This document shows, piece by piece, positions 22,412-25,712 of a DNA stretch of 25,712 nucleotides; position 1 is the first letter of the stretch; each line of letters begins with the position of its first letter. The notes under the pieces were generated by a model. It saw only the letters and a list, made by a program, of their open reading frames with translations, was not told where the DNA came from and did not search any database. Position numbers and translations under genes: made by a program. The stretch covers positions 1 to 25,712 of the IMG/VR virus record IMGVR_UViG_3300024520_000448; one strand, written 5' to 3'. This DNA is from a virus.

Positions 22412-23280
22412 CAGAAGGGGATCTCGTCATCGCCGAGCGGCGCCAGCTCTTCGGCTGCGTCCTGCCCGGTCTCGGGGAAGGCTCCCGTCAGCCGGTCATA
22501 CATCCGATCATAGCCCGGCTTTGGGGGGCAGTGCTCCATCAGATGCGCGTGGACGGTCTTCTCCGTGATCGTTCCCGTGAGTAGCGGCAGCCGTTCGGCC
22601 TTGAGCGCGGCCTGGAGGACTTTGATCGTATCCAGACCCGAGGCTTTGCAGTGCTTCCGGCTGGCCGTCATCAGCCGCCAGGTCATGTTTACCGTGATCC
22701 CGGAGAATCCTCCAGACGCTGCGGTCTGTGCGGAGGGTGCGGAGGGTGCCGGCCCTGACGTGCGTCGCGCTGCGGGGCTGTCCGGGAACGGCTGAGAGTG
22801 ATCCTCGCCTTCGTTCGCCTCTGTGTCTGGCTGGTCTTCGGTCGGGATCGAGAACGCCTGGAAGATCCCGGCCTTCAGCGCAGTCGAGAGCGCCTGCGCT
22901 GCGCCCTTGTCGGGGGGATTGACGGCGTCGGCTCCCTGCCCGATCACCCGCATCGTCTCGCGATGCGTGGCCTCATTCGTCCCGTCGAAGCCGAGCAGCG
23001 TAAAGGTGTAGTCCACGGTCACGCGCGTGAGCAGCGCCTTCTTCTCGACGCCATTCCGGTCGCTCCAGGTCAGCTCCTGGACGGCGTCCGAGACGACGGA
23101 GGGCGTCATCACGAGACCCTTCGCGACGAGCTGCGGCTGGAGCCAGGCGAGCACCTGCTGAATCCCCCTGAAGGAGTATCCCATAGGGGAGCGCTCGGAG
23201 AGCGGGATCGCGGCGGCGTCGCGCATGATCGCGAGCCGGGCCTCGTATACTGACTTGAACGCTGCGGACTTCGCGGGCAT
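22411..23280 (-). CDS. erf: ERF-family single-strand annealing protein with SSB-like C-terminal tip
   Basis: 289 residues, ATG at 23280 preceded by AGGAGG. ERF-type proteins bind single-stranded DNA and anneal complementary strands in phage recombination. Signatures are MGYSFRGIQQVLAWLQPQL followed by VAKGLVMTP (about 33-60), the strand region with VDYTFTLLGFDG, and GQGADAVNPPDKGAAQALSTALK with FQAFSIPTEDQPD (about 113-152). A Ser/Pro/Ala linker (about 155-195) leads to a C-terminal domain with two Cys and ending in GDDEIPF. That last stretch resembles the acidic tip of bacterial SSB (DDDIPF), which docks replication and repair enzymes. No second SSB gene is seen here. The gene follows the Gp157-like gene by 10 bases. 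Confidence 0.88.
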   Translation of the reverse strand: MPAKSAAFKSVYEARLAIMRDAAAIPLSERSPMGYSFRGIQQVLAWLQPQLVAKGLVMTPSVVSDAVQELTWSDRNGVEKKALLTRVTVDYTFTLLGFDGTNEATHRETMRVIGQGADAVNPPDKGAAQALSTALKAGIFQAFSIPTEDQPDTEANEGEDHSQPFPDSPAARRTSGPAPSAPSAQTAASGGFSGITVNMTWRLMTASRKHCKASGLDTIKVLQAALKAERLPLLTGTITEKTVHAHLMEHCPPKPGYDRMYDRLTGAFPETGQDAAEELAPLGDDEIPF

Positions 23281-23290
23281 CGGGATCCTC

Positions 23291-23872
23291 CTAGCTGATC
23301 TTGAGAGTGATACGGCGGTCTCGGACGGCGTAGACCTGGAGCGTCGCGCCCTTCCCCAGGCTCAGCTCCTCGACGTCCGTAGCCTTCATCGCGTCGAGCA
23401 GGAGCTTCAGGCCCGGCGGGGGCGGCTTCGGGTCGAGTCGATACTTCTTCGGGACGAGATGCTCCTTCCCGTCGAGCACGATCGCGGCCTGGCTCTTGGA
23501 GTAGTGGACCCTGACGCGCTCGTCCTTCAGCTCCGAGGCCCATAGGTTCGAGCGCTTCAGGTTCTCAGCCAGATACCGAGCGAGTCCGTCTGCCTGGCGC
23601 TCCAGCTTGCGGGCGTCGAGCAGATAGCGTTCGGCCAGAGCCTTCGCGTCGGCGACGATCTGGGCGGCGATCCCGTTCGGTCCTGCGGCCTCCTGTCGAA
23701 GCCCCTTGATGTAGAGGGCGATCTCCAGCGCGCGCTCTCGGCTGTCCCCTTCCAGGGACTCGATCTCGGCCAGACCCTCCTCTGATACCTCGCCAGTCTC
23801 GCTATCGACGTGACGGCTGATCGCGCTCTGCAGCGCGTCGGCGATCTCGTACAGTCTGCGTTCGTCTGCCAT
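23291..23872 (-). CDS. Siphovirus Gp157-like protein
   Basis: 193 residues. ATG at 23872 is chosen because AGGGGGA lies 5-12 bases upstream; an in-frame longer version starting further upstream would enter the palindromic control region. The order matches Gp157 proteins: RLYEIADALQSAI at the start, a Glu-rich helix, ALYIKGLRQEA (about 65-75), a long helix with LLDARKLERQADGLARYL, and the C-terminal KSQAAIVL / LVPKKYRL / KGATLQVY strands ending in ITLKIS. Gp157 is common next to annealing genes in siphoviruses; its exact role is not settled. First gene of the - strand operon, transcribed away from the shared control region. Confidence 0.8.
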   Translation of the reverse strand: MADERRLYEIADALQSAISRHVDSETGEVSEEGLAEIESLEGDSRERALEIALYIKGLRQEAAGPNGIAAQIVADAKALAERYLLDARKLERQADGLARYLAENLKRSNLWASELKDERVRVHYSKSQAAIVLDGKEHLVPKKYRLDPKPPPPGLKLLLDAMKATDVEELSLGKGATLQVYAVRDRRITLKIS

Positions 23873-23938: not shown

Positions 23939-23957
23939 GATTGTGTGATACACAATC
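23939..23957. promoter_or_regulatory. Perfect palindromic operator candidate in the divergent control region
   Basis: GATTGTGT-GAT-ACACAATC: perfect 8-base arms with a 3-base spacer, centred at 23948. It lies between the divergent Gp157-like and initiator genes (starts at 23872 and 23974). A second weaker pair, AGCGTC (23897-23902) and GACGCT (23919-23924), lies nearby. The AT content of the palindrome is well above the surroundings. No clean -35/-10 pair could be chosen by eye on either strand. Likely a repressor or activator site controlling both operons. Confidence 0.7.
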
Positions 23958-23973: not shown

Positions 23974-24843
23974 ATGGGATTCAGGCCGCACTTCAAGGCG
24001 CACGTCTCGATCACGACTCATCCGAAGATGGCCCGCATCTATGCGGACGATCAGCTCCTGGCCTGCTGGCTGCGGGTCGGCGTCGAAGCTGTCGAGAAGT
24101 TCGCCGGGAAGACGGGGGGCAGTTTCATCCTCCGCGACCTGGCTCTCTTGCCGCTAGCCAACACCCACGACCTCGCCGATGCGATCGATATCTTCCGGCG
24201 GATCGCGGCCGAGGGAATCTGGAAATTCACGCGCGCCGGCCCGAAAATTCACCGAATCGAATGGCTCAAGCTACCGGAAAAGCAGGGATTCGGAGGCGAA
24301 ACGCAACGGAAACCCGGAGAGAACCCGGAGCAAACGCAACGGAAACCCGGAGCAAACGCCTCGGATCCGACTCCGACTCCGACTCCGATCTTAGATAAGA
24401 AGAAGAAGAAAGAGAAAGAGAAGAGCGCGACGGCTCCCGCCGCCGCTGTGTCTGTGGATCCTCCTGGCGACTGGCCGAATGAGAAGGAGCGCGACCAGAT
24501 CGCAGCCTGGGCGGCGAAGCAGACGCCGAAGATCGAGCGCCGCTATCTCGGCCGGGCGCTGGAGCGATTCCGCGACAGCTCGGAGAACCGGAAGCAGAAG
24601 CGGAAGAACCCGCGCACCCGCCGCGGCTGGTCGGCCGCGTTCCGTGGCGGGCTGTCTGACGAGTGGTTGCTTCCCCCAGAGGTCCGCCGCGAGCGCAGCC
24701 GGCCAGTCGAAGCGAGGCCCGGTCACGGCCGGATCGACCGGCAGAATGCCGAGGCTCAGGCGGATATCGTCCAGGCACACGCGAAAATACACCCCGAGCC
24801 CGTCGAGGGCTGCGTCTGGTGCCCTCAATCAAGCCAGGGCTAG
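23974..24843 (+). CDS. Probable phage replication initiator
   Basis: 289 residues from ATG 23974, which follows a GGGGGG run at 23965-23970; an earlier in-frame TTG lies inside the palindrome. The N-terminal domain (to about 115) has the pattern of phage winged-helix initiator/helicase-loader proteins: GFRPHFKAHVSITTHPKM, then ARIYADDQLLACWLRVGVEA, LRDLALLPLA and IFRRIAAEGIW. Residues about 108-152 are a low-complexity linker (QRKPGENPEQ repeats, PTPTPTP, then a Lys/Glu run). A C-terminal basic domain follows (WPNEKERDQIAAWAAKQTPK, then KRKNPRTRRGWSAAF) and the last residues hold CVWC. It probably marks the origin and recruits helicase. DNA repeats in the linker-coding part may be the origin itself. 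Confidence 0.65.
   Translation: MGFRPHFKAHVSITTHPKMARIYADDQLLACWLRVGVEAVEKFAGKTGGSFILRDLALLPLANTHDLADAIDIFRRIAAEGIWKFTRAGPKIHRIEWLKLPEKQGFGGETQRKPGENPEQTQRKPGANASDPTPTPTPILDKKKKKEKEKSATAPAAAVSVDPPGDWPNEKERDQIAAWAAKQTPKIERRYLGRALERFRDSSENRKQKRKNPRTRRGWSAAFRGGLSDEWLLPPEVRRERSRPVEARPGHGRIDRQNAEAQADIVQAHAKIHPEPVEGCVWCPQSSQG
24299..24425 (+). other. Origin-like repeat block inside the initiator gene
   Basis: Two perfect 21-base direct repeats (24299-24319 and 24332-24352, period 33) contain AACCCGGAG, and a third AACCCGGAG lies at 24322-24330. They are followed by four tandem hexamers (TCCGAC three times, then TCCGAT; 24366-24389) and a 29-base all-purine A-rich run (24397-24425). Iterons followed by an A-rich, strand-asymmetric tract inside the initiator gene match the arrangement of the lambda origin within gene O. 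Protein low complexity alone could also explain it. Confidence 0.5.
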
Positions 24844-24909: not shown

Positions 24910-25113
24910 ATGATCGAGATCGTGAAACGCCAGGCTCCAGCTATGACTCTGACCCCGCAGTTGCCATCGCGAACGCGGCGCGTCGTCCACTATCGCTGCT
25001 GCGACTGCTGCGAGATCCAGTACGTCTTCAAATATGTGGGTCTACCGCAGCGGCTCGTCCGCTGCGTAGCCTGCTCATTCGCGAGGTGGCGACGCCGCCA
25101 GGGCATCGCATGA
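24910..25113 (+). CDS. 67-residue zinc-ribbon protein
   Basis: ATG at 24910 is chosen because GAGGAG at 24896-24901 precedes it at good spacing; an in-frame start at 24865 has none. Cysteines 30, 31, 33, 34 (RCCDCC) and 52, 55 (CVAC) give two knuckles separated by about 18-20 residues, flanked by basic residues (RTRR before, RWRRRQ after). It looks like a small nucleic-acid-binding zinc ribbon without a catalytic domain. It overlaps the nuclease gene by ATGA, so the two may act together, for example targeting DNA ends or junctions. Function not established. Confidence 0.7.
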   Translation: MIEIVKRQAPAMTLTPQLPSRTRRVVHYRCCDCCEIQYVFKYVGLPQRLVRCVACSFARWRRRQGIA

Positions 25114-25559
25114 GCCGCTCGACTCACGCGATCGGGGCTGCTCGCGACGCGAATGAGCCCGAGATCCGGCGGGCATTCGAGGAGGTCTGTGGCGCGGTCT
25201 TCTGGCCGACCGCTGAGCCTGTGGACGCGCTCGTCTGGTGGATTGGGAGCTACGGCCCGAACAGCCCGCAGCTCCACGCAGTGGAGATCAAGCGCCCGGC
25301 AGGGCCGAAGGGCGGCACATCGGGCCGCAATCTGACCCCGGCCCAGGAGCGATTCTTCGCGGCCTTCCCGGCAGGCGTCCGACATGTCGTCAGGACGGTC
25401 GAGGACGTCTTCGATCTGGTCCCCCGGCAGCCTGGCTGGCCCGCGGCTCGCCATCGACCTGCCGTCTGGGAAGCTATCCGCGAGTTGAGGCCGACCCGCT
25501 CGCCCGAGGACGCGAAGTACGCCGCCGTCTTCCACGCGCGTCGAAGTAGCGAGCCCTGA
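25110..25559 (+). CDS. PD-(D/E)XK / VRR-NUC-type nuclease
   Basis: 149 residues, ATG 25110 overlapping the zinc-ribbon stop. A plausible active site is Asp 39 (EPVDALVWW) followed by VEIK with Glu 59 and Lys 61, then LTPAQERFF with Gln 79 (about 75-83), the order D...ExK...Q seen in VRR-NUC and Holliday-junction resolvase-like enzymes. A Glu in the first helix (NEPEIRRAFEE) would complete the site. Phage enzymes of this kind process branched DNA before packaging. The C-terminal 45 residues are basic and Pro-rich. The end of the gene (25474-25559) is antisense to the C-terminal tail of the regulator gene. The motif set is good; exact specificity is unknown. Confidence 0.7.
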   Translation: MSRSTHAIGAARDANEPEIRRAFEEVCGAVFWPTAEPVDALVWWIGSYGPNSPQLHAVEIKRPAGPKGGTSGRNLTPAQERFFAAFPAGVRHVVRTVEDVFDLVPRQPGWPAARHRPAVWEAIRELRPTRSPEDAKYAAVFHARRSSEP

Positions 25560-25712
25560 TTGCAGCGTTCACCAGCTCGGACACGTCGATCTCTCGGCGC
25601 CCGGCCTCGATCTCCAGGAGCGCATTCAGATCGGGCGCGAGGGCGACCGAGCGCCGTCTGACGGTCCCGCTCTCGTGCTTCGTGGGCCGGGAGCCCTGCT
25701 GTCTGTGGTAGA
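25474..25712 (-). CDS. Ribbon-helix-helix regulator (5' end cut by window)
   Basis: On the - strand a frame is open from 25710 to a TAG at 25474, 78 residues, with no in-frame start codon before the motif, so its start lies beyond the edge. It contains a clear ribbon-helix-helix: strand TVRRRSVALAP, helix 1 DLNALLEIEAGRR, turn EIDVS, helix 2 SELVNAAIRARYFD. Such proteins are dimeric repressors of the CopG/Arc type that bind inverted repeats with their paired strands. The tail after the motif is Arg/Ser-rich (GRRRRTSRPRASG) and antisense to the nuclease gene end. It could bind the palindrome at 23939-23957; this is inference. Confidence 0.7.
   Translation of the reverse strand, partial: YHRQQGSRPTKHESGTVRRRSVALAPDLNALLEIEAGRREIDVSELVNAAIRARYFDARGRRRRTSRPRASGSASTRG

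Follow-up and report, generated by a model that had tools for sequence, protein, structure and literature searches.

A candidate replication origin within the coding sequence of a putative initiator gene in an uncultivated tailed phage

The linker-coding DNA of a candidate initiator gene in an uncultivated phage probably serves as a replication origin. The DNA analyzed, referred to here as the window, is the whole of a linear IMG/VR record of 25,712 bases (64.8% G+C), which is an incomplete fragment. Within it, the stretch from about 24211 to 24425 appears to be a phage replication origin lying inside the gene for the phage's own initiator, with a probability of roughly 0.7. In the best reading, this origin has a layout like that of phage lambda, but its units are direct repeats in phase with the helix, like plasmid iterons. 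The repeats, their out-of-register nature, the stability minimum, the codon bias, the predicted bend and the lambda-like layout were computed here, and we infer that binding, melting, helicase loading and the start of replication take place at the linker.

The candidate initiator gene is an open frame at 23974–24843 on the plus strand. Its 289-aa product consists of an N-terminal domain (residues 1–106, approximately), a linker (about 108–150) and a C-terminal part. The original prediction placed a lambda-like origin at 24299–24425, inside what it called an initiator gene, and took the low complexity of the linker peptide as a sign that the DNA is under selection. The 21-base repeats, tandem hexamers and purine A-rich tract that it described there are all present as stated. 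The linker peptide is indeed of low complexity, but this is insufficient by itself because out-of-register repetition is stronger evidence of a DNA signal.

The 21-nt sequence AAACGCAACGGAAACCCGGAG occurs in two exact copies, at 24299–24319 and 24332–24352, 33 nt apart. No longer direct repeat occurs within 120 nt anywhere in the window, and 40 first-order Markov simulations of 25.7 kb each gave a maximum of 15 nt. When the peptide was held fixed and synonymous codons were resampled, the repeat had a P of 0.0055. These iteron-like repeats are better described as six 11-nt units covering 24299–24364 in the order A B B A B A', where A is AAACGCAACGG and B is AAACCCGGAGC. Specifically, the 66 bases read AAACGCAACGG / AAACCCGGAGA / GAACCCGGAGC / AAACGCAACGG / AAACCCGGAGC / AAACGCCTCGG. 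The units fall in codon phases 1, 0, 2, 1, 0 and 2, so that all three phases are used. The self-identity of the array is 58% at a lag of 11, 68% at a lag of 22 and 79% at a lag of 33, and a 16-nt exact repeat, AACCCGGAGCAAACGC, at 24322 and 24344 (lag 22) has a different reading frame in each copy. The array has an out-of-register score of 20/22, which was reached in none of 2000 synonymous resamplings, while the next best site in the window scored 16/22. Given the three codon phases and the resampling result, these are repeats of the DNA and not of the peptide alone. An iteron origin within a gene should contain repeated sites that the peptide leaves unexplained, and the 11-nt units are such sites.

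Following the array, the hexamer TCCGAC is repeated in tandem (3.8 copies, 24366–24388) and occupies a position like that of the C-rich 5-nt units in the linkers of actinophage initiators. It leads to a candidate DNA unwinding element at 24385–24425. When duplex stability was computed from nearest-neighbour energies, the minima of the window for lengths of 20, 30 and 40 bp began at 24391, 24388 and 24385, respectively. The purine run at 24397–24425 is 29 nt long, and no other purine or pyrimidine run in the window exceeds 13 nt. A poly-Lys/Glu peptide by itself leads to a rather unstable duplex, with a resampled mean of -1.286 versus -1.197 observed. An explanation of the A-rich tract by the peptide alone nevertheless holds only in part, as the instability of 24385–24425 exceeds what the peptide requires (P = 0.003). 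This stretch is thus the easily melted A+T-rich element that would adjoin the repeats in an iteron origin within a gene.

Codon usage in the linker is abnormal by the standard of this phage, with a log-likelihood z of -4.6 and a GC3 z of -3.8; when 2384 windows of 24 codons were compared, only the small gene at 24912–25113 gave lower values. When each repeat unit was counted once, the deviation persisted for both codon choice (P = 0.0008) and GC3 (P = 0.013). The low GC3 starts near 24238, upstream of the array. The DNA leading into the repeats, 24211–24310, is predicted to be intrinsically bent, and its A-tracts are in phase with the helix. Its 72.6 degrees make it the largest predicted 100-bp bend of the window (next, 43.3 degrees), and AA phasing at about 10–11.5 bp is strongest in the window at 24262. 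The bend model is a simple AA-wedge model with parameters chosen by the analyst. Under synonymous resampling the bend and the AA phasing are moderate (P = 0.025–0.07), and the bend is therefore regarded as supporting evidence and not as proof. Several of the features were picked for testing after inspection of the sequence. Overall, the three codon phases, the abnormal codons, the stability minimum and the strongest predicted bend support the proposal that the DNA, and not the peptide, is the signal. The end point first proposed for the origin, 24425, agrees with these results; the unusual DNA, judged by low GC3 and the predicted bend, probably begins upstream of the proposed start, near 24190–24240.

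Gene O of lambda was run through the identical tests as a positive control. The out-of-register test picked its iterons 1 and 2 (lag 20, P = 0.003), located at 0.39 of the gene. Its least stable 40 bp proved to be the A-rich tract at 0.48, and the strongest predicted bend lay at 39032, the first iteron. In the window gene, the repeats are found at 0.40 of the gene and the melting stretch at 0.47.

The same kind of repetition is found in actinophages. The test was applied to 20 initiator genes of phages that infect Mycobacterium, Gordonia, Microbacterium, Arthrobacter and Streptomyces, a set that contains a few mutually close relatives and from which two truncated Propionibacterium phage frames were excluded. 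Out-of-register repeats were detected at P ≤ 0.05 in 13 of the 20, against 1 of 40 neighbouring genes, and at P ≤ 0.01 in ten. In the positive initiators all of these repeats lie at 0.33–0.55 of the gene. The commonest unit is 5 nt long (CCCGA, CCCAA or CCCTT) and occurs in all three frames, with iteron-like sites preceding the tandem repeats. The palindrome core GTCACGCGTGA is present in seven initiator genes from three host genera (Mycobacterium, Microbacterium and Gordonia) in differing codon phases. In the linkers that carry it (L007, L011, L019, L104, L105, L106 and L109), C-rich 5-nt tandem repeats follow, and it looks like origin DNA conserved across phage genera. The out-of-register repeats, together with GTCACGCGTGA in differing phases, thus indicate that actinophage initiator linker DNA carries signals of its own. 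The window gene shares the actinophage feature of out-of-register tandem repeats in a mid-gene linker. By analogy, the actinophage linkers support the reading of the window as an origin, although they prove neither homology nor origin function.

The main rival to an origin is neutral repeat expansion in a tolerant linker. According to this explanation, an 11-nt unit grew by slippage in 33-nt steps, Thr-Pro and Lys/Glu runs followed, and the DNA holds no signal. Tandem duplication without selection can yield the array in three-unit steps, and the array fits a 33-nt in-frame duplication. The low complexity of the peptide is also as expected, the Lys/Glu run is inherently purine-rich and unstable, as the resampled mean indicates, and the long repeat exists in only two full copies. 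However, the rare-codon bias survives the single counting of units and starts upstream of the array. Moreover, the stability minimum, the bend and the repeats coincide and match the lambda layout, and the linkers of actinophage initiators repeatedly show an out-of-register repetition that the genes next to them lack. Neutral expansion is accordingly considered unlikely, and an origin in the linker is preferred.

While the gene contains an origin-like layout, its designation as an initiator gene is tentative. No usable family match for the 23974–24843 product was found in Pfam, PHROGs or NCBIfam. The same searches gave no match to the O family, to which the product of a lambdoid gene would be expected to belong. 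AlphaFold2 run from the single sequence gave a mean pLDDT of 44–46 and no confident fold. Searches of IMG/VR, GTDB genomes, phages and plasmids yielded no relatives of the gene except for one phage match at E = 6. This match, to the N-terminal domain, is annotated as a RepA-like initiator of Mycobacterium phage prophiT36-2a. No exact 19-mer of the repeat was found elsewhere in IMG/VR. When relatives of the linker were sought through the terminase, only the near-identical contig L003 was recovered, which stops short of the linker, and none were recovered through Gp157 and ERF. A helicase search returned 80 loci, whose frames included neither a relative of the initiator nor a gene with a comparable linker. 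The lack of a recognised initiator family and of a confident fold for the protein, and of a linker-covering relative among the collections searched, counts against the origin.

The product does possess an HPK...W.R.G pattern resembling that of actinophage RepA-like initiators. A profile of 15 such initiators aligned with the N-terminal domain at an hhalign probability of 48%. The domain ranked second of 2319 with all family members included and about tenth without the two nearest. A first suggestion of homology to these initiators did not reach significance without the two nearest members, as shuffled decoys then scored equally high. Based on this borderline sequence resemblance, the product is a candidate replication initiator. 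That it is instead another DNA-binding early protein, such as a regulator, with a repetitive charged linker is quite improbable. Such a protein would agree with the missing family assignment and the weak resemblance to actinophage initiators, but not with the ERF and Gp157 neighbours, the helicase elsewhere in the genome, the N-terminal pattern like that of phage initiators and the origin-like linker.

The window contains the gene set of a tailed phage, including terminase, portal and head genes. The nearest relative of the terminase (1265–2623) is that of the archaeal Methanobacterium phage psiM2 (46%), with Gordonia phages next. The divergent neighbour of the candidate initiator gene is a Gp157/Gam-like gene on the minus strand (23294–23872; PF05565, E = 2.4e-11), and a gene for an ERF single-strand annealing protein lies at 22414–23280 on the same strand (phrog_155, E = 4.2e-13; PF04404, E = 2e-07). 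Contig L003 reaches 1.6 kb past the left end of the window and encodes, upstream of the terminase, the C-terminal part of an AAA_25 helicase and a PDDEXK nuclease. The phage therefore owns a replication helicase. As replication and recombination neighbours, ERF, Gp157 and the AAA_25 helicase of L003 count in favour of the origin.

Several other features were observed. Within the helicase domain, L003:216–270 is an imperfect direct repeat with 29-nt spacing, out of codon register, which may reflect either a recent duplication or faulty assembly. A perfect palindrome, GATTGTGT-GAT-ACACAATC (chance expectation 0.01, with up to 3 mismatches allowed), lies at 23939–23957 in the spacer that separates the candidate initiator from the divergent Gp157 gene, and is a candidate operator. 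The small gene at 24912–25113, perhaps acquired recently, has a zinc-ribbon-like CxxC pattern, and GC3 is lower in its windows than anywhere else in the record. The end of a ribbon-helix-helix-like protein with no Pfam match is encoded at 25474–25710 on the minus strand, cut by the end of the record. GC skew showed no clear turning point over the 25.7 kb and is uninformative because the record is a fragment.

If the linker is the origin, the N-terminal domain of the product would bind the direct 11-bp units on one face of a pre-bent helix. Wrapping of the repeats by this domain would create stress that opens the adjoining purine-rich, least stable stretch at 24385–24425, and the tandem TCCGAC hexamers could possibly help to hold one of the opened strands. 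The C-terminal part would then recruit a helicase, a candidate being the AAA_25 (RepA-like) enzyme that the phage itself encodes. Direct repeats of the plasmid type also have control functions. Along with the intergenic palindrome and the incomplete, linear nature of the record, this would fit a site at which the product or a repressor binds to control expression, copy number or incompatibility, with replication beginning at another place such as the unsequenced part of the genome or the intergenic region between the divergent genes. Such a binding or autoregulatory site in place of an origin is very improbable, however, since the adjoining global stability minimum fits an origin and not an operator, and the position and order of the elements are as in the lambda origin.

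If an origin in the linker is correct, an uncultivated phage gains both a defined origin and an initiator. Origins might then be found from sequence alone, by searching candidate initiator genes for out-of-register repeats that occur with a stability minimum; the out-of-register test finds the lambda origin and tells actinophage initiators apart from their neighbours. Origin DNA could also explain why the linkers of many phage replication proteins are repetitive. A more tentative possibility is that the initiators of several phage lineages share an origin overprinted on the linker codons, in which phased iterons are combined with a melting element and with a short tandem block, rich in C, that lies either out of the codon register or beside it. 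The C-rich blocks, TCCGAC here and CCCGA, CCCAA or CCCTT in actinophages, may hold the opened strand like DnaA-trios. Were this three-part origin shared, the low-complexity linkers of initiators would be by-products of origin DNA.

Among known systems, the lambda origin, with iterons and an AT-rich tract in the middle of O (PMC7466680), has nearly the same layout. The smallest unwinding unit in lambda consists of two iterons and the AT-rich tract (PMC7466680). As in lambda, with its four iterons, repeats are followed in mid-gene by a melting stretch rich in A and in purines. Lambda iteron DNA is bent (PMC5043065), and a bend is likewise predicted at the window repeats. In contrast, lambda iterons are 18-bp inverted repeats spaced 20–24 bp apart (PMC6022878), while the window possesses direct 11-bp units with 22/33-bp spacing. 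The hyphenated inverted symmetry of lambdoid iterons is absent from these direct repeats. The window also differs in having a tandem hexamer block between the repeats and the melting stretch, and its protein has no detectable family match to O. Because its repeats are direct and those of lambda are inverted, the candidate is lambda-like in layout, as the lambda O control supports, but not in repeat form. Its helically phased 11/22/33-bp direct repeats are nearer to plasmid iterons than the original description as lambda-like implied.

Plasmid iterons usually lie outside the initiator coding sequence, whereas the window repeats are inside that of the candidate initiator. In iteron plasmid origins, direct repeats in helical phase adjoin an A+T-rich opening region (PMC5043065), and the window resembles the P1, RK2 and R6K type in this arrangement. 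In the RepA mycobacteriophage replicons of Miko, Rachaly and Jeeves, the cis-acting origin was placed within or adjoining repA and likened to lambda O (PMC7157519); these represent a different RepA set, in which no repeats were identified (PMC7157519). In the actinophage RepA-like initiators (phrog_2447, phrog_1882 and relatives), the tandem unit is mostly 5 nt and the iterons are often palindromic (GTCACGCGTGAC), unlike those of the window, and the origin role is putative there too. Despite these differences, the window gene resembles them in size and in the HPK...W.R.G N-terminal pattern, and they carry, at 0.4–0.55 of the gene, a low-complexity linker with iteron-like sites and C-rich tandem repeats out of register.
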